A stretch of 64,000 nt of DNA from Puniceicoccaceae bacterium (GCA_028285755.1 JANQOQ010000014.1:186001-250000); one strand, 5' to 3'; counted from the first letter of the stretch, positions 46,941 to 64,000 are shown. Numbers and translations: made by a program. Notes: generated by a model not told the origin, from the letters alone.

Positions 46941-46961
46941 TTCTCAACAATTGATTCAACT

Positions 46962-48455
46962 ATGCCATTTGTATTCAATCATATATTCGCCTCTTTAATT
47001 CTAATTGGTATATGCCAGAGTGTAGCTAAAAGACCGCCAAACATCATCTATATTCTTGCCGATGATTTGGGTTATGGAGATATCAGTGCACTCAATAGCA
47101 AATCAGGAATCTCAACTCCTAATATGGATAGGCTAGTTTATGAAGGCGTACATTTCTCAGATGCACATAGTAACTCATCCGTTTGTACACCCACACGTTA
47201 TGGTATTTTAACAGGCAGATATGCATGGAGGTCTCGATTAAAGCAGGGTGTTTTATGGGCCTATGATAAACCCTTAATCGAGGAATGGCGATACACAGCT
47301 GCTGACTTCCTGAAAGAGCAGGGATATCACACTGCGGTTATTGGTAAGTGGCATTTGGGTATCGATTGGCCAATCAAGGACAACAATAAACCTATACCTG
47401 ATTATGACCAATCGAAGCAATATGACGAAACGTTTAATAGTAACATTGATTATCAGGAGCCTGTATTAGAGGGACCAAATGATCTAGGCTTTGACTATTC
47501 ATTTATTATTCCGGGCTCATTGGATTTACCTCCCTATGTATATTTAGAGAACGGTCAGACAGTTGATCTGCCCACAGAATTCACACATGGTCGCAGTCCA
47601 AATGAATATGGTCGTGGTGTTTATTGGAGGTCTGGAGAGGTCTCGCCCGCTTTTGTTTTTGAAGATGCTTTACCGCAATTTACCGAAAGGGCTGTAGAAT
47701 ACATTAAAAATAAATCTAAAAAATCTGATCCATTCTTTCTCTATTTCCCCCTTACTGCGCCTCATACTCCTTGGCTGCCAAGTGATACCAATAAAAGTAA
47801 ATCAAATGCAGGAAGGTATGGTGATTTTGTTATGACGGTTGATGATGCAGTGGGGCAAATACTTGAAACCTTGGATGCTTTGGGCATAAACGATAACACA
47901 CTGATCATTGTTACCTCTGATAATGGAGCTCATTGGAATGCGAGTGATAAGCAACAATTTGAACACCGAGCAAATTATATTTATCGAGGTCAAAAAGCAG
48001 ACATCTATGAAGGCGGTCACCGTGTGCCTTACATAGCTCGATACCCAAATAAGATTCCAGCCGAGACTAGAAGTAATCAGATTTTATGCACTACTGATTT
48101 TATGGCTACTCTTGCTGGTTTGCTTGATGTTCCATTGCCTGACGGTGTTGCTGAAGATAGTTATAATTTGTGGTCTGCGCATATTGGTGAAAAAATAGAA
48201 GGTCAAATCCGAGATTACACGATTCACCATTCATTAGATGGTCTGTATGCCATTAGAATAGGCGGTTGGAAACTTGCTGAGACACTCGGTTCGGGAGGAT
48301 TCACCCAGCCAAAAAGATTATCGGGTGATAATGTCAGAGGAAGTCTATACAATCTAAAGGAAGACCCTTCTGAAAAATTAAACTTATATAATGATGAGCC
48401 TGAATTGGTTGCAGAAATGTTAAACAAACTCAATGAAACACGTAATAAAAAATGA
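46962..48455 (+). CDS. S1-family sulfatase (arylsulfatase A-like)
   Basis: The 497-residue secreted sulfatase has a signal peptide to about residue 22 and metal ligands D34-D35 ('ILADDLGYGD'). The canonical modification site is C75-T-P-T-R79 ('SNSSVCTPTRYGILTGRYAW'), followed by 'HTAVIGKWHLG' and 'IVTSDNGAHW'. All core elements are present. It overlaps the next gene by 4 bp (ATGA 48452-48455), so the pair is translationally coupled and presumably acts on one glycan, removing sulfate before or after the GH43-like enzyme. The substrate is unknown. Confidence 0.92.
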   Translation: MPFVFNHIFASLILIGICQSVAKRPPNIIYILADDLGYGDISALNSKSGISTPNMDRLVYEGVHFSDAHSNSSVCTPTRYGILTGRYAWRSRLKQGVLWAYDKPLIEEWRYTAADFLKEQGYHTAVIGKWHLGIDWPIKDNNKPIPDYDQSKQYDETFNSNIDYQEPVLEGPNDLGFDYSFIIPGSLDLPPYVYLENGQTVDLPTEFTHGRSPNEYGRGVYWRSGEVSPAFVFEDALPQFTERAVEYIKNKSKKSDPFFLYFPLTAPHTPWLPSDTNKSKSNAGRYGDFVMTVDDAVGQILETLDALGINDNTLIIVTSDNGAHWNASDKQQFEHRANYIYRGQKADIYEGGHRVPYIARYPNKIPAETRSNQILCTTDFMATLAGLLDVPLPDGVAEDSYNLWSAHIGEKIEGQIRDYTIHHSLDGLYAIRIGGWKLAETLGSGGFTQPKRLSGDNVRGSLYNLKEDPSEKLNLYNDEPELVAEMLNKLNETRNKK

Positions 48456-49597
48456 AATCTAGACTTAGCATAATTATAGTTCTGTTATTTAAAGTATGCG
48501 TTCTGGTAACCGTTGAGAGTAAAGGAACGAGCTATACCCATGATACTTTCAATCATTCCGATAATAGCCTTGAAATAGAATATGAATACATCGGTAAGGC
48601 AGTTCAAAAGAAGGACACCCATGTATGGGGAACATCACCTGTTATAGGTAAGGACGGAAGAACTCACCTATTTGTTGCAGAATGGCCCATGCCTGACAAT
48701 GATGAAGAAAGATTTAGCGGTTGGTATAAGCATTCACGCATTGCGCACTATGTAGGTGATAGTCCAGAAGGACCATTCAATTTTCTACGAATAGTAGTCC
48801 CGGATAAAGACGGCGAATTCAATGCACCTCACAACCCGACAGTTCAATACATTGATGGGAAATATGTGCTTTGTTTCATCGTCAATGAGAACGATGATAA
48901 ACGCTATCAAAGAATCATAATGCTTATTGCGGATGATCCAGCTGGAGAATGGCGGCCAGCGGCAGGACAAAACACAGATGGTACTATACTACGAAGGCCT
49001 GAGAATCTGAATTACTGGAATCATAATTCGGTAAGGGGAGTAACCAATCCTTCGCTTATTAAATTTCGTGGGAAATACATGTTATACTTTAAGTCGGTAT
49101 TACCTGCTACAGATGATCCCTTGCTAAACAAAGAAAATGACATGCATAACTGGAGGACATCTGATTATGGTTATGGTGTTGCTCTATCAGATAATTTGGA
49201 AGGTCCCTACGAGATTCATCCGCATAGAGTTACTTCAGAAGGCATGCAGCTAGAAGATGTGTTTGCATTCACGCATGAAGATAAAGTGTATTTTCTGAGT
49301 CGAGATTTCCGTGGCTCATTAGGGAGTATTGGAGGGGGTCTGCAATGGGCATCTGATGATGGTCTGTATTTTTCAAAAGAAAACTCTATCAGGGCCTATG
49401 AGGATTTAGAATACTACATAGGCAGATCTAAACTAAACGAAGTTTCATTATACAGGGGTCCTAGGGAAGGTCATCTTGAACGAGCGCAACTATTAATTAA
49501 AGACGGCAAGCCCGAATATCTATATGTCGCAACTGGTATCAATGATGAAGTTGGATATGGTAGCTGCTCGCATGTATTTCGAATAATTATTAAGTGA
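48452..49597 (+). CDS. GH43-like five-bladed beta-propeller glycosidase
   Basis: The 381-residue secreted protein has a signal peptide to about residue 23. 'DTHVWGTSPVIGKDGRTHLF' carries an early acidic residue, 'GEFNAPHNPTVQYIDGKYVL' gives a mid-protein blade, 'VTNPSLIKFRGKYMLYFKS' a later one, and 'EGMQLEDVFAFTHEDKVYFL' a Glu-Asp element. Blade repeats of the 'sP.v...dGkyyLyf' type fit GH43/GH117-like enzymes, which cleave arabinosides, xylosides, galactosides or anhydro-sugars. Family-level subgroup is not certain. It is translationally coupled to a sulfatase, so the substrate is likely a sulfated marine polysaccharide. Confidence 0.75.
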   Translation: MKSRLSIIIVLLFKVCVLVTVESKGTSYTHDTFNHSDNSLEIEYEYIGKAVQKKDTHVWGTSPVIGKDGRTHLFVAEWPMPDNDEERFSGWYKHSRIAHYVGDSPEGPFNFLRIVVPDKDGEFNAPHNPTVQYIDGKYVLCFIVNENDDKRYQRIIMLIADDPAGEWRPAAGQNTDGTILRRPENLNYWNHNSVRGVTNPSLIKFRGKYMLYFKSVLPATDDPLLNKENDMHNWRTSDYGYGVALSDNLEGPYEIHPHRVTSEGMQLEDVFAFTHEDKVYFLSRDFRGSLGSIGGGLQWASDDGLYFSKENSIRAYEDLEYYIGRSKLNEVSLYRGPREGHLERAQLLIKDGKPEYLYVATGINDEVGYGSCSHVFRIIIK

Positions 49598-49660
49598 GGC
49601 CATTTTTTCGGAAGGTAGTGTATTGCAGTAAATTACTGAATCACATAAACTTATAAAAAT

Positions 49661-49793
49661 GCGATTCCAAAAATGGCACACCCATAGGAGACCTGTTTTT
49701 GAATCAATAAACTTCTGATAGATAACATCTTGCGGAATTGATGAATTTGGCGGTTCACCCTAAAATGTAACCCATTTTTGTAACCAAAATCAA
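49661..49793 (+). repeat. interspersed ~130-bp repeat, copy 3
   Basis: It runs from 'gcgattccaaaaatggcaca' to 'tttgtaaccaaaatcaa', and is nearly identical to copy 2 at the ends. It lies 63 bp after the GH43-like gene and separates it from the next gene set. It has no coding frame. Confidence 0.9.
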
Positions 49794-49949
49794 GAACCAT
49801 ATATACTTAATGTGATTGTGCTTTGGTAGTAAAGCAATGAGTGATAACTCATGTTAAGCTTTCTAATTTGTTATTTTTTGGTAATACTAGTAGTCTAAAA
49901 AATTAGTAAGTTAGGTCAGATGAAGTAATTTCTAATCCTATAAAACCAA

Positions 49950-51356
49950 TTAATTTTTGAATTTGTAATTTAAACCAATATTAAGTGTTTCGAGCTCCTC
50001 ATAGGTATTCACCTTTAAGCCGTCCCTGTATTCGAGGGTTAAGCCAAGTTGCCCACTTAGTGCATAATCCAGGCTCGCTTCAAAAAGAAATGGATTAGTT
50101 TGGTCACCATCAATGACTTCAATTTTAGCAAAGTTTGCTGAAAACTTTACTTTAGGTGTATTGTTGACAACCGTTCTACTCCAGACATCAAAACCAATAG
50201 AGAATCCTCCTCTAAAAAAATTGTCCTCAATGTAATTTTCGAATTCGCCTTGGTCTAAATTGATACCAAAGTCCAACAGGATATGGGTATTAATTTTATA
50301 TAAATAATCCGTGCCAGGAATATTTCTAGGATAGTTAAATCCGGTTTCGGATATTATTGGATAAATTGAAAATTTGCCTCCATAAATTTGGGCATCAATA
50401 TCAAAATCCGATTGATAAAATGCCTCTAAATCATATACGAGAGTTATATCTTCTGATGGAACTATACTCATCCATGAGACATCGAATCGAAGGTCATTGA
50501 TTTCATCCTCACTGTTGTCTGCGATAGCCCTATCAAACGATAAATAATAATTCAACGTTTGATAAACATCAGTATTCTTAAAATGTGTAGTTTCAACGGA
50601 AAAAACCCCTTTTGATATCCATGTATCCGATCCATCAGAGTCGTTGAAATCCTTGTTATATGAAAATATTGCACCTGACACCCCCTTATAATCATTTATT
50701 GAGTTAACTTTGTCTTTTGCTAAATACAATGTAAAAGGTGCGGGCTCGTTCTTTGACTTAACCATTGTATTAGTGCGCGTTTGTGGATTCGTATTCTCTT
50801 CGTTTGTGTCGGTAGAACCTCTAGTGTAGTGTCTTCTTAAATCATCAAATGATAGTCTAATGAAGAATTCGCTATCAGGCGGAATGCTAACCCCGTCGTC
50901 AGTAAGTGGCAATCTACCTTCAAATCTAGCTATTTCATTGAGTAAGCCATTAAGTCTCTTACTTAATTCTGCATCCGATTCTGTAACTAGTAAGCCATCC
51001 TTGAATTTCTTTTGAGGTTTTGCAATTCCAAGCCAGCTTGGATGTTTAGAATAGAATCTATTTAACAGTTCTTCTGGTAATAGTTCTTCAGGAATCTCAT
51101 TTTCTTGTCTTATACTAAAATGCAGATACAATTCTGAGAAAAATTCAAAGTCATATCGATTTATAGCTTTATCCTTATTAAAATCAAAATGGCTCAATTC
51201 ACTAGGCATAAAATTGTAAACAATAAATGCAATTTGTTCTGGGATTTCCAAATAATTGGTTTCATCAAAATCAAATTCAGATGGGTCAATCAAAACTTCA
51301 CCTATTGCATTATTGAGCATTGAGATAACTAAAATTAGGAGGCTATGTGACTTCAT
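49950..51356 (-). CDS. putative outer-membrane beta-barrel protein with EF-hand-like loop
   Basis: I do not recognise this 468-residue protein. It has a signal peptide (1-19). An N-terminal part carries an EF-hand/dockerin-like loop ('FDFNKDKAINRYDFEF', about residues 57-72). A long C-terminal half has alternating polar and aromatic strands ending '...ETLNIGLNYKFKN', typical of outer-membrane barrels. It follows the 99-aa gene with a 4-bp overlap (51353-51356), so they are coupled. Divergent from them is an LpxR-type gene. A calcium-stabilised or Ca-dependent surface protein is possible, but the function is unknown. Confidence 0.65.
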   Translation of the reverse strand: MKSHSLLILVISMLNNAIGEVLIDPSEFDFDETNYLEIPEQIAFIVYNFMPSELSHFDFNKDKAINRYDFEFFSELYLHFSIRQENEIPEELLPEELLNRFYSKHPSWLGIAKPQKKFKDGLLVTESDAELSKRLNGLLNEIARFEGRLPLTDDGVSIPPDSEFFIRLSFDDLRRHYTRGSTDTNEENTNPQTRTNTMVKSKNEPAPFTLYLAKDKVNSINDYKGVSGAIFSYNKDFNDSDGSDTWISKGVFSVETTHFKNTDVYQTLNYYLSFDRAIADNSEDEINDLRFDVSWMSIVPSEDITLVYDLEAFYQSDFDIDAQIYGGKFSIYPIISETGFNYPRNIPGTDYLYKINTHILLDFGINLDQGEFENYIEDNFFRGGFSIGFDVWSRTVVNNTPKVKFSANFAKIEVIDGDQTNPFLFEASLDYALSGQLGLTLEYRDGLKVNTYEELETLNIGLNYKFKN

Positions 51357-51652
51357 TTTTCCGGCGATACAGTAGCTCCATTATAAACTGCTTTGGTGAT
51401 ATGAGATACTTCTGTAGCAGCTTTAAGTTTACCAATTTTGACCTTTAGTCCCCAAGGTTGAGTATATTTATCTAAGCATGGTTTAAGGGATGCTAATTGT
51501 GCGGGTCCTAATGAGTATTCTTTCGATAGATTGTGCTCTGCAAGCACTTTCCTGGATTTTGACCGAGCGAGTTCTTCGCCATGCTCTTTTTTAGCTATGC
51601 AATACGCTACGATCCAATGGGCTTTTTGTATGGTAAATGGTTTTGATGGCAT
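51353..51652 (-). CDS. hypothetical small soluble protein
   Basis: The 99-residue basic protein starts 'MPSKPFTIQKAHWIVAYCIA' and has no signal or membrane segment. It is Lys-rich and helical by eye ('EELARSKSRKVLAEHNLSKE'). Its stop overlaps the next gene's start (ATGA), supporting that it is real. No family is recognised; a small regulator is possible. Confidence 0.6.
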   Translation of the reverse strand: MPSKPFTIQKAHWIVAYCIAKKEHGEELARSKSRKVLAEHNLSKEYSLGPAQLASLKPCLDKYTQPWGLKVKIGKLKAATEVSHITKAVYNGATVSPEK

Positions 51653-51725
51653 AATTATATTATTGATTAGAGAATGATAATTAATCTTTTAAATCAATAA
51701 ATTATCATTTCAATCTTTTTTAATT

Positions 51726-52862
51726 ATGAAATCCATTTATTATTATATTATTATAAATCTTCTGTTTTTGTCGGGATTATTCGCTGATAAGCACGAGCAT
51801 TTGTCTGTTCGGTGGGAGAACGATACCTTTTTAAACACGCACTTAAGTAACTTATGGTTTAAATACACAGACAGGTATTACACCAATGGGGTATACTTAA
51901 ACTACATGTCGAGTGATAACGAGCTATCCCGAGTTCAGAATACGGATCAAAACTTCCTTTGGTCTAAGAGTTTAATGCAATTTCTCCCTAAATTGGGTAT
52001 GGAAATCGAAAGAACAAGAGGTGGTTTTCAGCTCGAGCATCAAATGTATACGCCCGCTATCATTGCATCATGCGATAACTACTATAGATTTTGTAATAAT
52101 CAACGGTTTCTAGACTACATTTTCGACTATGGGATCGGGAAAGACGCTGATCAACTTCAGGTTAATGATAGGCCATATGCAGCAATGCTGATGAGCAGTG
52201 TTATCCATGAAAGACGTGGTAATAGCAAATTTTTATCAATGCGTTCAACACCTACAGTAGATACTGTTATCATAGGCTTAGGGATGATAGGACCAGAAGC
52301 TCTTGGAGAACAATTACAAAGCGGTTGGCATCAGATATTTAACGGAGTTCGACCAGAAGGGTGGAGCAATCAATTAAAAAGTGAAGTCGGCTTATTACTT
52401 CATGCAGACCGCAAGTGGCGTATCCAAAGCTCTTCAAAAGACTCATTCTTGGCACACGAAGTCGATACTAGCCTAGGTGTTGATTTAGGCAATATTTATA
52501 GTCAGGCAGAAGCGGGAATTAGCGGAAGATTAGGCTTTGGATTACCAGAAACCTTTTATGATGAAAGCATAGATAGTTATGGAACTACTTTCTTTGGTAT
52601 AAGAGGATTTTACTTTTTTGCATCTGCAAATTACAAATGGGTCATACATAATATTTTTATTGCTGGAAATACATACAGAAATAGTCACGGCTTAGTGCAT
52701 GAGAGACTACAGTATGATTTAAAAAGTGGAATTGGTGCGAGGATAGGCGGTTCAAAATGGGATGTAAATGCTGAGCTATACTGGAACAACCAATCTAAAG
52801 AATTCAACAATCAGGTTGGATCACACTCGTATCTTACACTTTCAGTAAACCTAAGTATCTAA
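51726..52862 (+). CDS. LpxR-type lipid A deacylase
   Basis: The 378-residue outer-membrane protein matches the LpxR family (formerly DUF2219), calcium-dependent enzymes that remove the 3'-acyloxyacyl chain from lipid A. Motifs are 'SVRWENDTFLNTHLSN' with N32-D33, 'TDRYYTNGVYLNY' (T53-N54-G55), 'VNDRPYAAMLM', and 'GMIGPEALGEQLQSGWHQIF' with the likely catalytic H202, then 'PEGWSNQLKSEVG'. The signal peptide ends near residue 20 and the C-terminus is '...YLTLSVNLSI'. It is divergent from two minus-strand genes across 73 bp. A repeat copy follows 81 bp after its stop. Confidence 0.85.
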   Translation: MKSIYYYIIINLLFLSGLFADKHEHLSVRWENDTFLNTHLSNLWFKYTDRYYTNGVYLNYMSSDNELSRVQNTDQNFLWSKSLMQFLPKLGMEIERTRGGFQLEHQMYTPAIIASCDNYYRFCNNQRFLDYIFDYGIGKDADQLQVNDRPYAAMLMSSVIHERRGNSKFLSMRSTPTVDTVIIGLGMIGPEALGEQLQSGWHQIFNGVRPEGWSNQLKSEVGLLLHADRKWRIQSSSKDSFLAHEVDTSLGVDLGNIYSQAEAGISGRLGFGLPETFYDESIDSYGTTFFGIRGFYFFASANYKWVIHNIFIAGNTYRNSHGLVHERLQYDLKSGIGARIGGSKWDVNAELYWNNQSKEFNNQVGSHSYLTLSVNLSI

Positions 52863-52943
52863 TAGGATATTTTTGTTTTATGCAACCAAAACTCGGTCAA
52901 TTAACCCAAGATGCTATCTAGTTTCTATTGCTATGACAAGACA

Positions 52944-53067
52944 ACTGGCACACCCTGTAGGAAACCTGTTTTCGGATCAATAAACTGCTGATAATGAATA
53001 TTTTACGGAAATGATAAATTTGGCGGTTCACCCTAAAATGTAACCCATTTTTGTAACCATAATCAAC
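52944..53067 (+). repeat. interspersed ~125-bp repeat, copy 4
   Basis: It runs from 'actggcacaccctgtagg' to 'tttgtaaccataatcaac'. The 3' 50 bp are almost identical to copies 2 and 3. It marks the change from the LpxR set to the AT-rich VWA operon. The flanking 52863-53262 holds no gene. Confidence 0.9.
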
Positions 53068-53262
53068 TAAATTTCAATCAGTCACAGTGTTGTCTTTTCT
53101 ATTTCATTACTGCTTCTATCTTGTTTAGGTCGAAAAAATAGAACTTAAGTCTATTCATTATTTTGTTGGCAATATTTATCACACAAATTATTTGATATAC
53201 ACATCATTGTTATATATAATTTCTTAAGTCTACTCTGAGGATTTAGTATCATTAATTAAATT

Positions 53263-55503
53263 TTATGGGTTTTCTTGATCAAGTGTTTTCGAAAACACAT
53301 CAGGTCTTCCAAAAACTGCAATATTGATGTCTTCTTCATACATTGTTTTGCTGTCAGAGGTAGTTAATTTTATTGTATAGACTGCTTCGTAGTTATTACT
53401 AGGTAATTCATTAAAGATTAACTTTACTTTAATTGATTCGATTGCATCTTGCTGAGCCATCCCATAAAGCAAATTAATAGATCCATTATCTCTGTCCACC
53501 AAATATTTCTTATTCAACCCTACGACCTCATAATCTTTGACCAAGCCAAACTCATCCTCTTTTTTAAGTATTTGAAGTAACAAACTTCTTTCTAATTGAC
53601 GTATGGATTGTGAAATAAAGCTACTTATGTCTGTGTTAAATTCAATGGTATCGGTCTCAGATAAATCAAAGACCCCGATATGGGTATGCTCTGTTTTATT
53701 TTGGACATTTAAAAAATTACTGTAGTATTTATGTAGCTTTTCAGGATTATAGGTCCTGTCTTTTCCTGTTACTACTCCCATATGTATATTATTAGTAATT
53801 AGCATATGCTTTAAATCATTGATGCTGAATGTGAAAGATAAATCATTAAACGGCTTGCTGTCTATTTTCCAGGTAAGCTCCCTGTTGAAGTTCTCCTCGA
53901 ATGCATTATCATACTCGTCGGTAAACAAGAATAGCGTTTTTAACGATTCTTCTCTCCATAAGCTGTTTAGATCAAATTTCTTAGCATGAATTAATTGGTA
54001 TAGGGAGAAGAAGATACTTTCATTATTACCAGTTGTATGGGTTTTTGTATTATCTATGATAACGGGGGATTGGGTTCGATACTGTTTCCTTTTAGTTTCA
54101 TATCCTCTCATATATACTGATGAGATATTTATGTTATCGGACGTTTCACGCACTAATTCGGTGATATGTTCTTTAGCTGAAATGGCTCCATCAATTTCAT
54201 CCTCCATAGAACCTGATCCATCAAACAAAAAAACCATATCGAGATACTTTTCATCTGCTTGGGGCAATTCCACTTCGATAACATGTTCTCTATTCTCTGG
54301 AAATTCAATTATCTCTACCTGAGGTTCTGCCTCATACAACCCCATCTCAACTTTTAATGATAGTGGTGGGATGTATTCTCCAGTCCAGGTTCTTGCATTA
54401 AGTATGAACTCCTTTAGCCCTTTGTTGTTAAAATGTAGATCTTCTTTGGCAAAATGGTTCAACTCCTGTGCATTGTTAAAAAAGAGTATTTTAGTTCTAA
54501 AAGATCCATCTTCTTCATATTCTCGGATTTCTAACGAAATATTATTGAGTATCTTGTCACTAATGTGGCCGATATTTGAAACTAGTTCTATTACGCCATT
54601 ATCAAATATCAGGTTAAATTCAGGTAATATACCTCTTTCTACATTGAACGAATTACTACCTGTATAACTGATCTCCCGATGAGGATGATTAATTTCTTTT
54701 GCGATTGCTTCTATTGCTATTTCATGTTCCCCAAGAATATCAGGATGATACCTGTATTTTCGGAATTCATCTAGAGAGTTAAATTCAAGCTTTTCAATAT
54801 TGGATGCAGGATCCTTAATATTAAGCTTCAAAGACTTAAACTCATTATTATTCAAATATTCCAATACCCGCATATTTGTAATCTGGATTGAAACACTTGG
54901 GAATCCTAAAGGATCACTCTCAATTTGTTTAAAGCCCAAATTAACAGATCTATCATAAGGGTAATCAAACGTATCAATTAGCCAGTTCCTAACGGAATCG
55001 TAGTCTCTAGGTTGACCTGCTCTATCCCTATAAGTAAGTAATTTGATCGCAAGCTGATACCGCGCGTGTGGAAGGTCCTGAATTATGACATTGTTAATGA
55101 TGCCTGGCCAATTGACTCCGCTTTCTTGAATTATTTTGTTTATTTCTTCTTTGTTTGCACACTCGCTGCTTAAGGTGTAGCTCTCACTTACTCTCTCGGG
55201 AATTAACCGATATCTTCCAACTTCTGAAATGACTATATTCTTAGTGTGATTGGTGAATTCTACTACATCATTAGTAGAAGCAATTGACTTATCACCCTCA
55301 AAAGCTCTGATTTCCAGCTCAACAAGTCTTACTGTTCGCGGTAAATCTTCAAACACACTACTTCCTATGCAAATTTGTATAATTGGTTCTCCAAATAAGG
55401 ATTCTGAATCAGAGCGATAAAAATAACTGAAATCCTCTTCACTATAAATATCATTTCTAATAAAGAAGGATATAAATAGCAGCAAATAAATCTTTGTATA
55501 CAT
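53263..55503 (-). CDS. secreted VWA-domain protein, last gene of an unknown operon
   Basis: The 746-residue protein has a signal peptide (about 1-20). Several beta-rich repeats follow (about 40-400), probably Ig-like or similar ('SVSIQITNMRVLEYLNNNEF'). A von Willebrand factor A domain spans about 420-650, with an intact MIDAS site D428-x-S430-x-S432 in 'FLFDGSGSMEDEIDGA', then 'TGNNESIFFS' and 'LFLFTDEYDN' (Asp 529). A final beta-rich domain ends the protein. VWA domains bind protein ligands through a metal ion, so a surface-exposed adhesin or sensor is likely. It lies 2 bp after the preceding gene. The codon use is very AT-rich. Confidence 0.82.
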   Translation of the reverse strand: MYTKIYLLLFISFFIRNDIYSEEDFSYFYRSDSESLFGEPIIQICIGSSVFEDLPRTVRLVELEIRAFEGDKSIASTNDVVEFTNHTKNIVISEVGRYRLIPERVSESYTLSSECANKEEINKIIQESGVNWPGIINNVIIQDLPHARYQLAIKLLTYRDRAGQPRDYDSVRNWLIDTFDYPYDRSVNLGFKQIESDPLGFPSVSIQITNMRVLEYLNNNEFKSLKLNIKDPASNIEKLEFNSLDEFRKYRYHPDILGEHEIAIEAIAKEINHPHREISYTGSNSFNVERGILPEFNLIFDNGVIELVSNIGHISDKILNNISLEIREYEEDGSFRTKILFFNNAQELNHFAKEDLHFNNKGLKEFILNARTWTGEYIPPLSLKVEMGLYEAEPQVEIIEFPENREHVIEVELPQADEKYLDMVFLFDGSGSMEDEIDGAISAKEHITELVRETSDNINISSVYMRGYETKRKQYRTQSPVIIDNTKTHTTGNNESIFFSLYQLIHAKKFDLNSLWREESLKTLFLFTDEYDNAFEENFNRELTWKIDSKPFNDLSFTFSINDLKHMLITNNIHMGVVTGKDRTYNPEKLHKYYSNFLNVQNKTEHTHIGVFDLSETDTIEFNTDISSFISQSIRQLERSLLLQILKKEDEFGLVKDYEVVGLNKKYLVDRDNGSINLLYGMAQQDAIESIKVKLIFNELPSNNYEAVYTIKLTTSDSKTMYEEDINIAVFGRPDVFSKTLDQENP

Positions 55504-55505
55504 CT

Positions 55506-56459
55506 TTAGTTAAGTGACTCAATAATATACCTCGCGAAATTCTCTATAGAATCCTCTGTGTGTCTTTCATAAACAGTCTCATGCATATTTTCTCTGTAAG
55601 GGCTTTTTGACTGATACTTTTTTGCTTTTACTAGATCAGTAAACAAGCATTGCCAAAAATTATCATAAGCGATCGCAAAGTCATATTTTGGTGTTAAAAC
55701 ATGATTCAATGTAGGATAACCTATCTGTAACTTTATAACCTCCCAACTATTATAAGTGGGTAGTTTTTCGATGCCTATAGATTTAAGCACATAATCGCAT
55801 TCGTTGTTTTCTAGAAATTTTAAGTTTATTAAATTTGATCTACTATCGCCTCCTGTAAGTAGGGCAAATATCATTGTATCGTATTGCCCCTCATTTTCAT
55901 GTTTCGTAAGAGTTCCGCTGTTTAAAAATCTTAATATATTGAGGGGATAGGTTAAGTTTATTCTATTCTGTATATTCAGATTTTGGTTCTTTAGCCATCC
56001 ATCTGTGGTAAAATCTTTATTTTCCCTATACTGACGAGATAACCAAATGTCTGTTCTTCTAACTCTTTCCGCTAGTTCGTCTGTTAGGTATACATCCGAT
56101 ATCGCAACATCCATCGCCAAATTGGTTACATCATAAATTATCGTTTTAGTTCTATTCCCCAGAATGTTTATGGTTTTATCTTTATACTCATTTAACGTTT
56201 TTCTTGAAAAAATCCTTTTAAAAGTTAGTTCAATGTTTCTGGCCAAGTTATCCCTATATTTTAAGTTGTTTGTTAATTCACCATCTTCCAAGAATGCGGT
56301 AAAATCAATTGCAATAACTAATAATATAGTGTTATCAACTGGACTTTCAATGTCATCATTGTCAGCTTTAAGGTTATGATTAGAATTTAAATAAATAGTT
56401 ATTACAAATAGTAATTGAGCAAATATAATTCGGGTCGGATTATTTTTAGATTTATTCAT
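55506..56459 (-). CDS. secreted or membrane-anchored hypothetical protein (possible degenerate VWA)
   Basis: The 317-residue protein has an N-terminal signal or anchor (about 10-24). After it comes 'NTILLVIAIDFTAFLEDGEL', which resembles a VWA first strand with Asp52 but without the DxSxS residues, and later 'MIFALLTGGDSRSNLI', which could be a VWA strand. No family can be named, so this is inference. It overlaps the upstream coiled-coil gene by 8 bp and precedes the VWA gene by 2 bp, so all are co-translated. Confidence 0.65.
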   Translation of the reverse strand: MNKSKNNPTRIIFAQLLFVITIYLNSNHNLKADNDDIESPVDNTILLVIAIDFTAFLEDGELTNNLKYRDNLARNIELTFKRIFSRKTLNEYKDKTINILGNRTKTIIYDVTNLAMDVAISDVYLTDELAERVRRTDIWLSRQYRENKDFTTDGWLKNQNLNIQNRINLTYPLNILRFLNSGTLTKHENEGQYDTMIFALLTGGDSRSNLINLKFLENNECDYVLKSIGIEKLPTYNSWEVIKLQIGYPTLNHVLTPKYDFAIAYDNFWQCLFTDLVKAKKYQSKSPYRENMHETVYERHTEDSIENFARYIIESLN

Positions 56460-57963
56460 AAATTAGTAAAGTTTTAACAAAATTGTGTATTTCAGTATTG
56501 TTGTATCGTGCTTCTAATTCAGTTCTAATATTAAAAATCGATTTGTTAGACTTTTCATTAATATATACTACTAAATTATCTATTGATTCTTCTATTAGTC
56601 TCTTGTCATTGTCCCAATGATCAGCCGATAGAACTTCAATTGTCACCTCAAATTGTTTCTGAAATTTAGCTTCACTAAGGTATTGATTTGCCTCCTCAGT
56701 ATAAGATTTGATAATGTGAGCTGCCACTTTTTCTAAGTTTATCTTAAATTGCTTACAAAGTGTTGTTATGTTGCCTTCTAATTCTAGAATATTTTGATAG
56801 TCTTGATCTATTTGTATACTAACTTTTTCATATTCTTCATGCTCAGCCTTGTTAATATTCTCTTTAGTTAGAATGAAATTGCTTTCAATCTTGCTTTTTT
56901 CCGTAATAAATTTATCCTCTTCTTCACGCATGATCACTTGATTATCTTCTAAACTAGAACTTAGATTTTGTTCTATATTTAGAAATTTTATAAGTTCTTT
57001 GTTGAGCTCTCTCATTTCATTTTTATTCTTCCTAATCTTCTCTATTGCCAAATATTCCTCATGGCTCTTTTCAGACTTATACTGAACGAGTATAGCTAAT
57101 AAACCTGTTACGTGTATTGTTAAAAAAGAGAATGATTCGTATAGGCTTGCATTAAGAAATATTATAATATGTAAAAAAGCAGAATATATAAGATACAAAA
57201 AAATGAATAATAAAAACAATAATCTGAGAAAGTTAAAATCCTTAAATATATTATTTATATTAATTTTAAAATTCTGTTTATGCCTTTTAATATATCCACC
57301 TAAAAGTGAAAAAACTGCTTGATAAAGAATATAAAAAAGGACACTAATTAACGTTATGTATTGTATGCTAATCTTGAATACGCTGACATTTCCTGCTAAC
57401 AAATTTGTATTTAAGTTTTCTGTAAATTCGTGAGCTATGTAACCGCATATAAATAAAAGAAAAACTCTAATAATTACTAAAATTGATTCTCTAAAAAGAG
57501 TGCCTTTCTTGTAGGAAGGTAAGTTAAATATGAATTGCCATTCTTTTTTTATTTTATCATCTAAATCTTCCTTTTTAATTTTATAATTCTTATTTAGATA
57601 TTCATATTTTTCACTTATATTATCATAACGAGTTCTCAATTGATCATCTACATCATCTAATTGCAATTTACGTCTACTATATTTAACTTCTTCTTTTTCT
57701 ATATCTCTTGCTTTTTTATCTTCTATTTCTTTCAAACGTGTGGCATATCTTGTGCCTATGATATTAATTTTATTAGACTTGTCTGCAATATTTTCTTTAT
57801 ATTTATTGGATCTGAGTAACAAAATTGTGAGCAATTTATAAAGTCCATTGTCTCCTTTTATCAAATTTTCTTCACAAGTTATGATTTCTTTGTTATAATC
57901 AGCTTTGAAACTTTGAAGGTAGTTATTGTAGTCCGAATTAATTATATGTTCATTATTACTCAT
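56452..57963 (-). CDS. membrane protein with flanking coiled coils, unknown
   Basis: The 503-residue protein has an N-terminal charged coiled coil (about 60-145, 'IEKEEVKYSRRKLQLDDVDD'). A central membrane block has about four hydrophobic segments (around 160-180, 195-220, 240-270 and 275-295). A second long coiled coil follows (about 300-400). No recognisable enzymatic motif or P-loop is seen. The arrangement recalls structural or force-transmitting membrane proteins, but not clearly MotA/ZorA-type. It overlaps both neighbours by 8 bp (56452-56459 and 57956-57963). Confidence 0.65.
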   Translation of the reverse strand: MSNNEHIINSDYNNYLQSFKADYNKEIITCEENLIKGDNGLYKLLTILLLRSNKYKENIADKSNKINIIGTRYATRLKEIEDKKARDIEKEEVKYSRRKLQLDDVDDQLRTRYDNISEKYEYLNKNYKIKKEDLDDKIKKEWQFIFNLPSYKKGTLFRESILVIIRVFLLFICGYIAHEFTENLNTNLLAGNVSVFKISIQYITLISVLFYILYQAVFSLLGGYIKRHKQNFKININNIFKDFNFLRLLFLLFIFLYLIYSAFLHIIIFLNASLYESFSFLTIHVTGLLAILVQYKSEKSHEEYLAIEKIRKNKNEMRELNKELIKFLNIEQNLSSSLEDNQVIMREEEDKFITEKSKIESNFILTKENINKAEHEEYEKVSIQIDQDYQNILELEGNITTLCKQFKINLEKVAAHIIKSYTEEANQYLSEAKFQKQFEVTIEVLSADHWDNDKRLIEESIDNLVVYINEKSNKSIFNIRTELEARYNNTEIHNFVKTLLIYE

Positions 57964-58813
57964 ACTTTCGTTTGCTTTTGTTAAGAGAAAATAAGCTAAA
58001 ACCTTCTGCCCATCCCTTCAAGTAGTGGATGCGATTTGAACATCGAGTTTGATTGAATTTGTTGAGTTCTTTATCGCATTCGACCAGCTTTTCGAAATAT
58101 TTTGAAATAGCGCTACCTTCAACTTGTTTATCATCCTGAGTTGTTTTTTCTTTTTCTTTTGATTTAAACCTCCTTATTATCGTAAATCTGATACGAGATA
58201 GTTTAGCTCGGTAGGATTTTGATGATGAATGAGCGCCAAAAAGTAACGCTAACAGACTAACTATAATAAAGAAAACTGTTGATGATAGATCACCACCAGC
58301 CTCTAGCCTAATCCATAGTAATGATCCAATTAGTAGTAGCCCACACAAAAAAAAGAATAATGCTAAGATTGGTTTATCTTTACGAATAAAATATCCAGTT
58401 TGGTGTGCGGAATATGGTAGAAGACCACCATAAACACCAATTGGTATTATCCAGTCTAACCCCGGCAGTGCAGATAAGTTTGTAACATCTAGTTCCTCGA
58501 GCACTAAGTAAGCAATATATACTTCTACCAGGAAAACTATTACAACTGGTATATAATAATAAAGGTTTTTGTTAATATTATACTTCTTTATTCTTGGTGC
58601 TAAGTAATGAATTTTTTTTATTATTTTGTTTCTAACATTAATTATATCATCTCTATTGCTATAGTTCCCTGGTATTACATTATTAATTGCTGTGGAGGAC
58701 TTAAGTATATATTCTTCATCTATACTCTTTAATTTTTCTTTCTTAGAAATTAAGAGGCATCTTTCCCCTGCTACTTTGCCTTCTATATAATACTTATTTC
58801 TTGAAAGTATCAT
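57956..58813 (-). CDS. polytopic membrane protein, unknown
   Basis: The 285-residue protein has an N-terminal soluble part (1-75), four to five membrane segments (about 80-205) and a basic C-terminal cytoplasmic region ('RIRFTIIRRFKSKEKEK') with a short coiled-coil-like stretch. No family is recognised. It overlaps the gene before it by 4 bp and the gene after it by 8 bp. Confidence 0.62.
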   Translation of the reverse strand: MILSRNKYYIEGKVAGERCLLISKKEKLKSIDEEYILKSSTAINNVIPGNYSNRDDIINVRNKIIKKIHYLAPRIKKYNINKNLYYYIPVVIVFLVEVYIAYLVLEELDVTNLSALPGLDWIIPIGVYGGLLPYSAHQTGYFIRKDKPILALFFFLCGLLLIGSLLWIRLEAGGDLSSTVFFIIVSLLALLFGAHSSSKSYRAKLSRIRFTIIRRFKSKEKEKTTQDDKQVEGSAISKYFEKLVECDKELNKFNQTRCSNRIHYLKGWAEGFSLFSLNKSKRKYE

Positions 58814-59355
58814 AATAAGTTTTTAAATGAATAATACTTAGTTATGACATTCATTTTGTCTTTAAGAATTTCAAATTCATCTTTAGTTAAGATATGTCTA
58901 TTACTTTCCAGCTTTTCTCTAAATTGTGAGAAATAATAATAACCTTCAATTCCTACGTGATAACAATACATAACAATAGTGGATTCATTATTGTTGCGCA
59001 GTGGATTTGAGCTTTGTGGGCTCCTATAATGATTATCTTCAGTTAGTAAGTAGCAGTCTATTAATCGTGGCTGATTTGAATTACGTTCCATTGCCACTAT
59101 TACAATACACTTTTTTTTCTTACCAGATACTGCTATGTTTAGTAGTGTTCCAGCAGGAATTATATTGGTGTATGTTTCTTTAGTATATTTATCGACTAAT
59201 GACATTTCGACTACATCGTAGTAGTGCTGGTCTATGGCATTTCCAAACCTTACTATAATGGAGTATATTCCGTAGAGTGCGGTAAGAGTCCAGAAAGTAA
59301 GGAACATGTACTTAAAAAGACGGTTAGGCGATGGTGCAGGACTTAAAGTGTCCAT
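58810..59355 (-). CDS. single-pass membrane protein, first gene of the VWA operon
   Basis: The 181-residue protein has one membrane segment (about 15-38) and a C-terminal extracytoplasmic or cytoplasmic domain ('IIPAGTLLNIAVSGKKKKCI', 'IVMYCYHVGIEGYYYFSQFR'). No family is recognised. It is the promoter-proximal gene of the five-gene minus-strand set. Upstream, 59356-59895 is a 540-bp very AT-rich stretch with no gene, likely its promoter region. Confidence 0.62.
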   Translation of the reverse strand: MDTLSPAPSPNRLFKYMFLTFWTLTALYGIYSIIVRFGNAIDQHYYDVVEMSLVDKYTKETYTNIIPAGTLLNIAVSGKKKKCIVIVAMERNSNQPRLIDCYLLTEDNHYRSPQSSNPLRNNNESTIVMYCYHVGIEGYYYFSQFREKLESNRHILTKDEFEILKDKMNVITKYYSFKNLL

Positions 59356-59895
59356 AATTAATTAGTCGGATTTAGCTTATTTGTATTAGCCTACATACAC
59401 GCTGATACAAAAAGTCGGATAGTTTGTGAAAAGGAAAGTTAGTTAGAAATCGTCACTGACAAAATAATGACATTCTAATAAGTCAAGAAAAAGATACAAA
59501 ATTAATAAAAAAACGCAAAAATTACACCACAAATATGTAAAATAATAGTAATAAATTAGTAGAAATAATAAATTGCTATAAAATATGCTAATTTTATTAG
59601 AGACTGTCAGTTATAAATCTTTATCTTCGCAATACTTTTAAACTACAAAAATTATTTCTAGAGCCAATGAGCTACCTCAAATAAAATCATAGCCAGTGAT
59701 TAGCAAATTACCTCTAAAAAATCTGAACCAAAAACATCATCAATCACGAGAGTGTCAGGAGTCTGGCCAAAATCTCTATAAAACGTTTAAAATGAGTGAG
59801 TTATATAAGTTAAAGTGTCGATTTTCTAACAGTTGATTGGATAAGTTACTTACTAGGAAGCTTGTATACTGACCATTAAAGTTTAATATTTAGTA
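59356..59895. other. 540-bp AT-rich intergenic region
   Basis: No credible coding frame, repeat copy or hairpin is seen. It separates the divergent VWA operon (minus) from the small lipoprotein gene (plus) and probably holds promoters for both. Confidence 0.6.
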
Positions 59896-60169
59896 ATGAA
59901 TAGATGGCTGATTTCCTTTTGTGCTTTGAGTTGTTTTTTAGGTTGTAGTCGATCAATCAATTTTGATTCCGCTCTTCAAATCGATGTGTTAGCAGAGCAA
60001 GATATAATTCTGGAGACTACAGAGGAGGCATCAGTTTATTCCTTGAGCATAGAGGTTTCAGGAGAGATAGTTGGAGAATCAAAAATTACCTAGTTCCTTC
60101 CTAAATAGTGAGGATTCTAAAAAATACACATTTTCCGATGGTTCAAGAATCGCAGATGTTCTTAGCTGA
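59896..60169 (+). pseudogene. small lipoprotein gene with apparent frameshift
   Basis: The frame starts at ATG 59896 with a lipoprotein signal ('ISFCALSCFLGCSR', lipobox Cys17) and stops early at 60093 after 65 residues. Reading one base on from the A5 run at 60081-60085 continues in a clean frame to TGA 60167-60169, adding 'LPSSFLNSEDSKKYTFSDGS' and 'RIADVLS', about 90 residues in total. This suggests a +1 insertion in a homopolymer, either a real lesion, a sequencing error or slippage. The function is unknown. Confidence 0.5.
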
Positions 60170-60216
60170 TTGTATAGTAAATTTTCATACCTACGCTATT
60201 ATTCAATTATTCCAAA

Positions 60217-61137
60217 ATGGAAGATAAAGAAAAATTGTATCACGACTTCTGGTTTTCTTTGTTAAAAGAGGCATTTCAAGCCAGTAGTTTTGATACCTTA
60301 TGCATTCTCCTAAGACCTAGAGGTATGCACATGTCTGGATGGGATATTTTGGATGAGGCAGAGGTCACATTTGATGACTTCAATTGGATGTTAGAAATAG
60401 CAAATAAGCAGAGAGGAATATCTAGTTCTAGGCGTCTCGCTCTCCATTACTACTGTTTTATTATAGAGATGACGCCTATACATGAAATTATAGCAAATAT
60501 TCTAGGGGTAATCTCAGGGAGTCATTACAAGCCCTTTCCTCTCATGCACTTGAATCATAGAAAAGGCAAAAGATCAAAGACTCCAGGCAAGCAGATTCCT
60601 GCTAGTCTATCAGCAAAAATATCTCATATTAGGAATCTCGCAAAGGAACTGAATAAAACCGAATTATTAAGCTATATTGATACTATATTCGATGAATCTT
60701 TGAGGAATTCTATTGCCCATTCTGATTACATAATAACCGATAAAGAACTACGCTTGTTTAATGCTGAAGAAGACAGAATTCGACCTATAGAAGAAGTGGA
60801 TGACCTTATAAATTTAACTTTTGGGTTTTTATCAGGTCTATTGGTAGCATATGCAAATATGAAATTTTTTTTGGCAAGAAACAAGAAATACCACAAATGG
60901 AGTAATTATGAAGTCTTAGAAATTCTGAGAAATGATAATGGTTTATGCGGCTTTAGTGTGCATTTTTCTAACGGTAGTAAGTCTACATTCAGGCGAGATG
61001 AAAATGGAGCGACTGCCATAAATATGATAATTGATGATACAGTTGGATTTATGGTAGGCTTGATTGATGACATGGAAAACAAGTGGAAAATTGATGGCAA
61101 AGAAGTCACTGACTGGGATGCCATAAATAAAGATTAG
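60217..61137 (+). CDS. HEPN-motif protein, possible RNase
   Basis: The 306-residue soluble protein has a helical centre with 'FDESLRNSIAHSDYIITDKE'; R163-N-S-I-A-H168 is the R-x4-H signature of HEPN domains, many of which are RNases in toxin-antitoxin or defence systems. A C-terminal beta-rich part ends '...DGKEVTDWDAINKD'. No partner antitoxin of a known type is adjacent; an ExoX-C-like protein follows after 17 bp. The family is not certain beyond the motif. Confidence 0.65.
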   Translation: MEDKEKLYHDFWFSLLKEAFQASSFDTLCILLRPRGMHMSGWDILDEAEVTFDDFNWMLEIANKQRGISSSRRLALHYYCFIIEMTPIHEIIANILGVISGSHYKPFPLMHLNHRKGKRSKTPGKQIPASLSAKISHIRNLAKELNKTELLSYIDTIFDESLRNSIAHSDYIITDKELRLFNAEEDRIRPIEEVDDLINLTFGFLSGLLVAYANMKFFLARNKKYHKWSNYEVLEILRNDNGLCGFSVHFSNGSKSTFRRDENGATAINMIIDDTVGFMVGLIDDMENKWKIDGKEVTDWDAINKD

Positions 61138-61154
61138 TTAGTTGAAACGATTAT

Positions 61155-61637
61155 TTGGAAATAGCTATGATATGGACACCACTAGATTTTGGACGGCATA
61201 AGGGGTTAACACTGCCACAGGTTATGTTTAAAGACCCTGATTGGTTCTATTGGGCATATGAAGGAAGAATTTTCGACGACAAGCCCCCATTAAACTATCA
61301 GGCAGAAGATATTTTTATTAAATCTAAATCGATAAGAATTTCTAACAATAAAGGAGAAGAATTGGTAGTGGAATATAACTTCTATTATCAAGACTATACA
61401 TCAGTTGGATTTCAAATAGTTCCAAAAGAAAGACCTAAACATGAAGGTGCTACACCTACCTTCCGACAAAACCATATTGATATGACTGTTCCAAGAAATC
61501 AGAAAAATTATGATAAACTTGGATATAGGATTTTTTTGAGATCACTTAAATTGCACTTATTTGGAAATGAATCTGCCCGCATGACACGTAAGCGTTGTGA
61601 TGATTTCTACTCCGATGAATCAAATTTTACTCATTAG
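61155..61637 (+). CDS. protein with ExoX-C-like domain
   Basis: The 160-residue product starts at TTG 61155 or, more likely, ATG 61167. The N-terminus 'WTPLDFGRHKGLTLPQVMFK' followed by 'DPDWFYWAYE' matches the small ExoX C-terminal-like domain ('fGkykGk.l.ev...dp.yl.w'), which is found alone or fused to nucleases and regulators. The rest is unrecognised and basic at the end ('SARMTRKRCDDFYSDE'). It follows the HEPN-motif gene by 17 bp (to the TTG), so the two may form an operon. Confidence 0.65.
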   Translation: MEIAMIWTPLDFGRHKGLTLPQVMFKDPDWFYWAYEGRIFDDKPPLNYQAEDIFIKSKSIRISNNKGEELVVEYNFYYQDYTSVGFQIVPKERPKHEGATPTFRQNHIDMTVPRNQKNYDKLGYRIFLRSLKLHLFGNESARMTRKRCDDFYSDESNFTH

Positions 61638-61717
61638 AATCTGGGTGTTGGTTGATATATTATATGACATCCTTCCATATAGGCCAATTATGGGCTTTTT
61701 AGGGGTATTCTGGGGTG

Positions 61718-63094
61718 TTAATCGCTCTCCCTATTATTTGGATTCAGGGAATTTTGGAAGTATTCCAATGTTGCAGTGAAATGGGGGGCTACTGTGTAGG
61801 TGAGATTGCTGCCTGCCGCAGTATTTGGAGTTCGGCGTAAAACATTATATCTGACTAATTTTCTGATAGTCGCACTTAGCTCCCTTACACCACTGGGTGT
61901 TACGTTTCCTCTGCGAATAAGACTAGTAATGATGGCTTCAGCTACAGATGGGGAACTCGAATGTCTGTAAATTTGAGAATATAGAAGATGAGGAGTTCTA
62001 ACTGGTCTCCTAGGTCTTGAAGTCTCTCCCTGTATCCATTGAAGCAGATTGTTTATCTGGCGAACAGCAGGAGAAGTTTGCCTTACCATGTGCTCAGATA
62101 TTTCAGGTAGATCATAGGAGCTTCTTCTGCCATTTATGCCATCCCTATATTGCCTGAATTCAAATCTAACACGATTCAAAGTTTTTGCATAGATCACCAT
62201 TTCGCGATTACTTCCTACGACCAGAGTGATAACAGGTGATATTCTATTTTGTTCCACACTAACTGGTGTAGGGTATTCTGTAATAACGTGGTTTGCGTAT
62301 CTCCTGAAACAGGGCAAGAGATTATAAAGATAATCAATGGAGTTAATATTTGGAGGTGGCCGCATTTCACAGTAAGATTCTATCTGACGCATAGAGTAAT
62401 TAGGCGCGTCAAAACTTATTCTCACGTTATTATTGCGTGCTGTTTCTATGTATGCCCTGCGCACTTCTTCAAAATAAGCTTGGACAGTCTGCTCGAGGGT
62501 AGCATCCAGAAAATTTAACCAATTCTCCCTTGTGCAATAACGCATCCATGCTGGTAGCATTATGCAGTTATCATTGCCATCTAGCGTGAATTCATCGCCC
62601 CTAACTCTGTATAACCTCCCATTTAGGTAAGGGTTAGGGCTATGAGTTATCGTTATGGGTTCAGCTAAGCTAGTAACCGAGTTGTTGTTTCTAAGGAGGT
62701 TCTGGTGAACAAACATTCGAGTAGGATTAAATTCGAGTGTAAATCTCAGCTCACATCTAACTTGCTCTGGACTGACATCTTGTCTTCTGAAATCTAATCT
62801 GCCACTAAATAGCGGGACTGGTCTATCACTATTCCTATTCGTTGATCTAACTATCATGTAGCTTGGGTCATCAACATCCCCTGAGGGACTAGAGAATATC
62901 CACCCAGTTCGTAAGTAGCCAAATTCGCCTTGCTCCTCTTCATTATTATTAGGAGTTCTAGACAAATGCTGAGCAAAAGCAAAATAGTCATCTACATGAC
63001 AATAAATGAAAATATTTTTAATATGAATTTCTATTTTATCATTACGAATATTATTAGAGGTTACTCGTAATTGATCATTATGTTCTACTATCAT
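61718..63094 (-). CDS. 458-aa hypothetical protein, replication-initiator-like in part
   Basis: The product is soluble, with no signal. I do not recognise it. The central segment 'SNREMVIYAKTLNRVRFEFR' resembles the 'y.Kt..ilRfEvr' strand of some filamentous-phage/plasmid replication proteins. The C-terminal part 'AEAIITSLIRRGNVTPSGVR' with 'LRRTPNTAAGSNLTYTV' looks like a winged helix. Catalytic HUH or Tyr signatures were not located, so this is a weak inference. Repeat pairs lie upstream of its start (63157-63540), and a serine recombinase gene lies beyond them. Confidence 0.6.
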   Translation of the reverse strand: MIVEHNDQLRVTSNNIRNDKIEIHIKNIFIYCHVDDYFAFAQHLSRTPNNNEEEQGEFGYLRTGWIFSSPSGDVDDPSYMIVRSTNRNSDRPVPLFSGRLDFRRQDVSPEQVRCELRFTLEFNPTRMFVHQNLLRNNNSVTSLAEPITITHSPNPYLNGRLYRVRGDEFTLDGNDNCIMLPAWMRYCTRENWLNFLDATLEQTVQAYFEEVRRAYIETARNNNVRISFDAPNYSMRQIESYCEMRPPPNINSIDYLYNLLPCFRRYANHVITEYPTPVSVEQNRISPVITLVVGSNREMVIYAKTLNRVRFEFRQYRDGINGRRSSYDLPEISEHMVRQTSPAVRQINNLLQWIQGETSRPRRPVRTPHLLYSQIYRHSSSPSVAEAIITSLIRRGNVTPSGVRELSATIRKLVRYNVLRRTPNTAAGSNLTYTVAPHFTATLEYFQNSLNPNNRESD

Positions 63095-63156
63095 TCTTGT
63101 GTTTTTAGAACGTATGACCTTTAAGAATAAAGGGGAAACTATTCAGGTTGGTATCT

Positions 63157-63172
63157 GTGCAACTGGTTGCAC
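63157..63172. repeat. 16-bp inverted repeat, copy A
   Basis: GTGCAAC-TG-GTTGCAC has perfect 7-bp arms. An identical copy lies at 63525-63540. It could be a protein-binding site for the recombinase or for the regulator of the minus-strand 458-aa gene, which starts 63 bp to the left. Confidence 0.8.
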
Positions 63173-63291
63173 TGTTTTTCTTATATGAAATGACCCCTAA
63201 TTTATCAAGCTATATCGCCCTTTGTGGTGCAAATTTTTGTGTTAAAAACTGAGATCAAATAGCGGGCAATTAATCATTAAGAATTAGCCTC

Positions 63292-63321
63292 TTTTTTTAT
63301 AGTGTCAATTTGTGTCAACTA
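63292..63321. repeat. direct repeat pair, copy A
   Basis: 'ttttttatagtgt' followed by 'caatttgtgtcaac' is closely repeated at 63384-63413 as 'ttttttatagtgt' plus 'aagattgtgtaac'. On the minus strand each contains tandem TTGACAC or TTACAC-type hexamers. They may be iterons, promoter or regulator sites. Confidence 0.6.
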
Positions 63322-63383
63322 GCATATAAAAATTGGTGGTTTTATGGAGTGAAAACAGTTGCCTAAATTCCTTAAAAACAGCC

Positions 63384-63413
63384 CCTTTTTTATAGTGTAA
63401 GATTGTGTAACAT
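63384..63413. repeat. direct repeat pair, copy B
   Basis: Second copy of the element at 63292-63321, in the same orientation, 92 bp further on and diverged in the last half. The surrounding gene-free stretch 63095-63663 holds only these repeats. Confidence 0.6.
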
Positions 63414-63524
63414 TTGATAATAAAATAAGAAATTATATGTGACAGATTTTTTGGTTATATTGATGCTTTTTAGTAGAGGTTATTTGCCCTTTATAACTTT
63501 CATTGTTCCCTGCCGCAAATTTTG

Positions 63525-63540
63525 TGCAACTGGTTGCACA
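63525..63540. repeat. 16-bp inverted repeat, copy B
   Basis: Identical to the copy at 63157-63172 (GTGCAAC-TG-GTTGCAC), 368 bp away, and 123 bp upstream of the recombinase start. Confidence 0.8.
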
Positions 63541-63663
63541 GTTTTCGAAGTTGGTGACCAAGGAATCGATCGAATCATTGGTAAATAAATGTCGTGATAA
63601 TGCGGGAATAACTAGACAGCATCTGTGCCAAATAATAGCTTAGAGGGTTTTTCTTAGACATAT

Positions 63664-64000
63664 ATGAAAAAAACGATAGCCCTCACCCGCATTTCCACGG
63701 GTAAACAAGACTTAGAGGCTCAAAAGCTCTCTATACTGGAATTCGCTCAAAGAGAAGATATCAAGATTGCTGACTTCTTTGAGAGACAAGTATCATCAAG
63801 AAAAACCTTAACCGAGAGAGGAATTGATGATCTATTAGCGTTGTTAGATACAGGAGATACATTGATCGTAGCTGAGTTGTCTCGCTTAGGCCGATCTTTG
63901 AACCAAGTGCTAACGATTGTGAATGAACTTATTGGTAGAGAGATTTACTTTATTTCAATCAAGGAGAACATTCGTATCAGTGGTAAGATCAATCTACAGA
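63664..64000 (+). CDS. serine recombinase (resolvase/invertase type), cut by the window end
   Basis: The N-terminal 112 residues are visible. 'IALTRISTGKQDLEAQKLSI' carries the catalytic Ser10 in the R-x-S-T context. 'DTGDTLIVAELSRLGRSLNQ' carries the family's conserved arginines, and 'IYFISIKENI' continues the catalytic domain. These enzymes cut and rejoin DNA at short sites through a Ser-DNA linkage. The C-terminal DNA-binding part is outside the window, so resolvase, invertase or transposon type cannot be decided. It is probably part of a mobile element with the repeats upstream. Confidence 0.88.
   Translation, partial: MKKTIALTRISTGKQDLEAQKLSILEFAQREDIKIADFFERQVSSRKTLTERGIDDLLALLDTGDTLIVAELSRLGRSLNQVLTIVNELIGREIYFISIKENIRISGKINLQ

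Follow-up and report, generated by a model that had tools for sequence, protein, structure and literature searches.

Five overlapping genes in an AT-rich island

The window analyzed here is a stretch of 64,000 nucleotides from the genome of a Puniceicoccaceae bacterium (GCA_028285755.1, JANQOQ010000014.1:186001-250000). Toward its right end, at 53263-59355, lie five minus-strand genes that a sequence-only reading had singled out as an unrecognized operon for membrane and VWA domain proteins. We describe the operon, the 20-kb integrative element that appears to carry it at a tRNA-Arg gene, and the possibility that its products form a complex across the cell envelope. All five genes start with ATG: gene 1 (P0001, 181 amino acids, 58810-59355), gene 2 (P0002, 285 amino acids, 57956-58813), gene 3 (P0003, 503 amino acids, 56452-57963), gene 4 (P0004, 317 amino acids, 55506-56459) and gene 5 (P0005, 746 amino acids, 53263-55503). 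Genes 1 and 2 share 4 bp, genes 2 and 3 as well as genes 3 and 4 share 8 bp, and genes 4 and 5 are 2 bp apart; the five open reading frames (ORFs) thus lie where they had been placed, on one strand and overlapping or abutting within 8 bp. Because the junctions overlap, the genes are likely to be co-transcribed, and we infer a single transcription unit. Promoter and terminator scans scored no better than they did on shuffled sequence.

That these are real genes is indicated by their length. When the same 6.2 kb were simulated 300 times with a first-order Markov model, the longest chance ORF was 167 amino acids, a maximum far exceeded by the products of 746, 503, 317 and 285 amino acids. Gene 1 (181 amino acids) exceeds it by a narrow margin, and its coding status is further backed by the 4-bp overlap with gene 2. 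The GC content of genes 1-5 is 0.33, 0.32, 0.26, 0.31 and 0.34, compared with about 0.50 for the surrounding chromosome, which puts a measured value (26-34%) on the AT-richness seen earlier. Codon usage of the operon correlates closely with that of its island neighbors (r 0.97) and less so with that of nearby chromosomal genes (r 0.43).

Membrane and putatively exported products

Topology was derived from hydropathy and charge (positive-inside counts), and signal peptides were judged by eye. P0001 has one transmembrane helix (residues 17-35), and its C-terminal domain is probably periplasmic. In the polytopic P0002, three helices are clear and a fourth is weak; the protein probably has four, with both ends cytoplasmic. 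Both assignments agree with the single-pass and polytopic proteins described before. P0003 has four transmembrane helices within residues 160-295, between long polar helical arms, and its distribution of Lys and Arg places both termini in the cytoplasm. Hydrophobic residues in the arms recur with a 3.5-residue periodicity that exceeds that of shuffled sequences (p = 0.024 for the N-terminal arm, 0.003 for the C-terminal), a heptad periodicity in keeping with the portrayal of P0003 as a membrane protein flanked by two coiled coils. Homology between P0002 and P0003 was suspected, and none was found on comparison.

P0004 begins with a hydrophobic segment that resembles a signal peptide by eye and is compatible with export. 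The sequence-only reading had taken P0004 to be secreted and perhaps a degenerate VWA protein; the first part fits this segment, and the second found no backing. In hhalign, P0004 scored 14.0 (E 0.33) against the VWA profile, no better than P0003, which is not a VWA protein (15.3), and DFTAF stands in place of the DxSxS motif. The AlphaFold2 model, built without relatives, is unusable (predicted local distance difference test score, pLDDT, 32), and a remote similarity to the VWA fold may have escaped it. P0004 and P0005 were suspected to be homologous, and comparison revealed no homology. Of the catalytic motifs scanned for, such as Walker A and HExxH, none occurs in the five proteins.

The VWA domain of P0005

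P0005 consists of an N-terminal signal-like segment, a beta-rich N-terminal part, a VWA domain from residue 421, and a short beta C-terminus. The hydrophobic N-terminal segment is, by eye, compatible with a signal peptide. Residues 421-532 match a small VWA profile (E 3e-6), residues 414-569 align by BLASTP with a VWA protein of a crAss-like phage (41.6 bits), and a motif scan found the residues of the metal ion-dependent adhesion site (MIDAS): DGSGS at 428, TTGNN at 490 and FTDE at 527. Pfam models did not report the domain. By profile and motif, P0005 thus qualifies as a member of the VWA superfamily with metal-site residues, in keeping with its earlier description as a secreted VWA protein with an intact MIDAS. 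Internal repeats were suspected in its N-terminal half and were not significant.

The AlphaFold2 model of P0005, built from three sequences, has a mean pLDDT of 37; in the VWA core, ten-residue means reach 63. When this low-confidence model was searched with Foldseek, integrin beta chains were the top PDB matches (TM-score about 0.2 by query, at most 0.40 by target). Integrin beta chains hold a VWA-type domain, and their ranking may lend weak support to the VWA assignment. The same likeness leads to the strongest rival explanation of the operon, in which P0005 would be a metal-dependent adhesin or glycan binder in surface adhesion or polymer binding, anchored or exported by P0001-P0003. A beta-rich part joined to a VWA domain has the outline of bacterial VWA adhesins and of integrin beta chains, and the adjacent units of the array described below hold glycan-utilization and envelope genes. 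However, the five proteins include no recognizable outer-membrane secretion pore, export ATPase or lipobox, an adhesin would have no need of two polytopic proteins and their long arms in the cytoplasm, and the Foldseek TM-scores are low. We consider this explanation rather unlikely.

Integration at tRNA-Arg

A tRNA-Arg(ACG) gene was detected to the right of the window, at 72997-73073 in the window frame (L003 15998-16074). About 114 bp from it, at the tRNA end of the element, a minus-strand gene (L003 13829-15883) encodes a tyrosine recombinase of 684 amino acids, which matches PF00589 with E 1.3e-5 and 25.5 bits, just under the curated threshold of 27.1. Four copies of the 19-nt 3' end of the tRNA gene, ATGGCACACCCTATAGGAG, lie in the window: the copy at 40716 is identical, that at 49673 has one deletion, and those at 29787 and 52945 have 3 mismatches each. 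The genome contains four copies of a 109-nt repeat, at 52958, 29800, 40729 and 49685; all are in the window and in the same orientation, and each is directly preceded by the tRNA 3'-end bases. The four copies resemble one another over the 112 nt to the right of the core (shuffle z 26-59), where the tRNA side differs from them. On the left of the core, the copies at 40716 and 49673 resemble the tRNA-flanking sequence, and those at 29787 and 52945 do not. Pairs of TGTAACC, 13 nt apart, occur at three left ends; at 29787 the second site is degenerate. One of the pairs (plus strand, 53039 and 53052, spanning 53039-53058) has the character of arm-type sites and lies in an attL-like, recombinase-distal end at 52945-53066 (plus strand), which is made up of the core (3 mismatches in 19) and the 109-nt repeat. 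Another pair, 12 nt apart (72894/72906), adjoins the recombinase gene on its promoter side. A reading of the repeats as integron attC sites was dropped in favor of tRNA-type att sites.

With the core at the tRNA gene and arm sites at both ends, the 20-kb element at 52945-72996 has what is, by its sequence, a lambda-type integrative anatomy; the part in the window (52945-64000) continues to the tRNA-Arg gene. The core copies, the arm sites and the placement of the recombinase show the operon's position as that of cargo at the recombinase-distal end. The sequence-only reading had rightly put the genes between a copy of the repeat and a segment with a recombinase gene. It had missed what the repeat is: the att/arm end of an element integrating at tRNA-Arg, whose tyrosine recombinase is encoded 20 kb away. 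Between the operon and the resolvase gene (60217-63094) lie three more orphan ORFs of 306, 160 and 458 amino acids; the second weakly resembles ExoX in its C-terminal part (E 0.0004, which misses the cut-off). Further genes of the element encode proteins with DUF4875 and DUF4304 domains (L003 9517-11121 and 12567-12995).

The core copies divide the DNA to the left of the element into three further units. The one nearest to it (49673-52944) has no recombinase gene and holds an LpxR gene (51726-52862) and an ORF of 468 amino acids. The next (40716-49672) encodes an extracytoplasmic function (ECF) sigma factor and FecR-like, TonB-receptor-like, sulfatase-like and GH43-like ORFs, the FecR, receptor and sulfatase labels being read from translations. 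The third (29787-40715) is devoted to mannan utilization (GH26, GH130, an epimerase and a transporter-like ORF). The arrangement points to four tandem units ending at tRNA-Arg, of which only the last has a recombinase gene. Alternatively, 49673-52945 may be a remnant and not a complete unit, since the core at 52945 is weaker and no conserved right end lies to its left. The array suggests how genes for mannan use, an LpxR gene and the orphan operon came together at one tRNA gene. LpxR belongs to the lipid A 3-O-deacylase family, and its gene, lying between two core copies, is possibly a mobile envelope-modification gene. To the left of the first core, at 26000-29780, the window is AT-rich with small ORFs of no recognized family, several of them membrane-like, and may represent an older, decayed unit.

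The position of the operon also bears on whether it serves the element itself, as an entry-exclusion or maintenance module that blocks uptake of related elements. It is the first cargo past the distal end, as such a module might be. Related units have, however, accumulated at this tRNA gene, which speaks against efficient exclusion, and no relaxase or conjugation genes were recognized in the 20-kb element. We regard this explanation as improbable.

A related recombinase near defense genes

The genome has one close relative of the recombinase, 34% identical over its length and encoded beside a tRNA-Glu gene on another contig (C2). The stretch that surrounds it (L046 1-18859) also encodes a related Xre-type regulator (50/90 residues identical) and a serine resolvase (25% identical), and a TGTAACC pair adjoins this recombinase gene too. 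Between these sibling genes and the contig end are a type I restriction-modification set and genes for a TIR and prokaryotic STING protein, a PDC-S18 candidate, a terminase large subunit and a deaminase. Among the ORFs scanned in this stretch, none was identified as a cyclase for the STING effector. TGTAACC pairs and tRNA core copies together provide a handle for finding more elements of this family and the uncharacterized cargo that they carry.

Search for relatives

None of the five proteins has a meaningful match in Pfam, NCBIfam, PADLOC or PHROGs, and the earlier statement that the operon has no described counterpart holds in these four libraries. P0003 and P0005, the two tested against PDB sequences, have no meaningful match there. 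A match of P0003 to a toxin B-chain family (PHROG E 0.095, PDB E 0.6-1) begins in the coiled-coil arm and was judged to be due to chance.

Genome searches were deep for Verrucomicrobiota only; in other phyla they would reveal close relatives at most. The Verrucomicrobiota samples, which overlap, comprised 289 genomes for P0005, 177 for P0003, 388 for the five proteins joined, 87 and 231 for P0004, and 236 for P0002. The only match of the operon genes in these samples was to themselves, and joined-query matches at E 0.01-1 were judged noise. Searches of plasmids and phages with tblastn gave at most VWA similarity and one weak coiled-coil match, and viral and genome contigs searched by peptide pattern gave crAss-like VWA proteins only. 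A collection of 84,980 species was probed through short P0005 peptide patterns only, and therefore relatives in other phyla may exist.

The sequence-only reading had looked to conserved co-occurrence of the five genes for support, and had counted the absence of their order elsewhere against a system. Not one of the five was found in another searched genome, and the gene order is likewise absent from that set; the five genes are not established as a system. The lack of conserved synteny in any genome searched would suit an accidental origin, with unrelated orphan genes lying in series in an AT-rich island. Against such an origin, three of the four junctions overlap and the last is a gap of 2 bp, all genes are on one strand, and all products are membrane or exported proteins; we give it little credence.

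Possible function of the operon

The operon products could be arranged as follows. P0001-P0003 would form an inner-membrane assembly, from which the arms of P0003 extend into the cytoplasm as coiled coils. Judging from topology and gene order, P0004 and P0005 would be exported and lie on the outer side of this assembly. Outside the cytoplasmic membrane, the VWA domain of P0005 would show metal-dependent binding of a ligand, and its occupancy, or the loss of it, would be relayed by the membrane proteins to the coiled coils of P0003 in the cytoplasm. As the five proteins have no nucleotide-binding or catalytic motif among those scanned, hydrolysis would have no part in the action of the complex, which would rest on binding and assembly. 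A trans-envelope assembly had been proposed before, and the anatomy of the operon products is compatible with it. We consider the structural part of the proposal, one complex with an exported VWA protein and a membrane relay, somewhat more probable than its opposite.

The role of such a complex may be to guard the envelope, in defense against or exclusion of incoming phages or elements. This role is ranked first mainly because defense genes travel near the sibling recombinase, and the defense link of the operon is in this sense guilt by association. Taken by itself, envelope guarding is a tentative suggestion, which we think is more apt to be wrong than right. The proposal as a whole, that the operon is mobile cargo encoding a trans-envelope VWA complex, with the role as a conjecture, we rate a little short of even. 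The boldest form of it is clearly unlikely: a new envelope-spanning defense or exclusion machine on tRNA-integrating elements, with an exported, metal-dependent VWA receptor, two polytopic proteins that link it to coiled coils in the cytoplasm, and without a nucleotide-hydrolyzing subunit of its own.

Several points weigh against the proposal. Glycan-utilization and envelope genes, and no recognized defense genes, are found in the array's three remaining units, and the best matches in PADLOC-DB (E 0.016 and 0.25) were judged to be due to chance. No repeat of the tRNA-Glu end was found within the 18.6 kb examined, and the far boundary of the sibling element was not located, so that part of the defense cargo may lie outside that element. 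The structure predictions (pLDDT 32 and 37) are too poor to show a complex, the signal peptides of P0004 and P0005 were judged by eye, and none of the five genes has a relative among the genomes searched. The carrier is an element of a known kind; its cargo appears unlike anything catalogued and is at most a putative system. Should the complex prove real, it would link a metal-dependent exported binder with the cytoplasm without an ATPase, on an element whose sibling adjoins phage-defense genes.

Relation to known systems

The nearest described mix of parts is found in the VWA/FtsZl1 operons, predicted membrane-remodeling systems in which VWA proteins (some of them secreted), a coiled-coil protein and lineage-specific membrane proteins are encoded together (Makarova and Koonin; PMC2875224). 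The present operon shares with them a VWA protein with an intact MIDAS, coiled-coil proteins and unrecognized membrane proteins, and the great diversity of such operons would leave room for a divergent member. In contrast to them, it has no GTPase and no kinase match, and a search of the assembly (97% complete) for the defining FtsZl1 (Tubulin_2, PF13809) gave no match; the positive control was found in 4/14 genomes. Membership is thus highly improbable. MoxR/Bat clusters (BatA/BatB-type) likewise have membrane-linked VWA proteins. Membership in this group was rejected: there is no MoxR AAA+ ATPase match, the five proteins lack Walker A, and P0005 does not match the VWA_2 model. VWA_2 proteins occur elsewhere in this genome (contig C2).

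Zorya and Kiwa are envelope-spanning phage defense systems, membrane complexes that couple the envelope to the cytoplasm and are found in defense islands. The operon differs from them in having no PADLOC match, no nuclease or helicase partner within it, and a VWA subunit that is probably exported. The nearest relatives found for the VWA domain of P0005 are the VWA proteins of crAss-like phages (Kehishuvirus), at 23-31% identity. Unlike P0005, these are proteins of 236-278 amino acids without a signal peptide, encoded among phage genes for nucleotide metabolism or replication.

The array at tRNA-Arg has counterparts among islands that accumulate at RNA genes. Vinyl chloride respiration islands are reported to accrete at ssrA in Dehalococcoides (PMC3146451), and integrative mobilizable elements (IMEs) are among the islands that are reported to integrate at RNA genes and accumulate in tandem (PMC5704250). 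The array resembles such islands in its successive insertions at one RNA gene, its copies of the 3' end as borders, and its recombinase beside the intact gene. It differs from them in that its site is tRNA-Arg(ACG) and its host verrucomicrobial, three of its units have no recombinase gene, and no conjugation gene was recognized. The cargo gathered here comprises mannan use, LpxR and the orphan operon.

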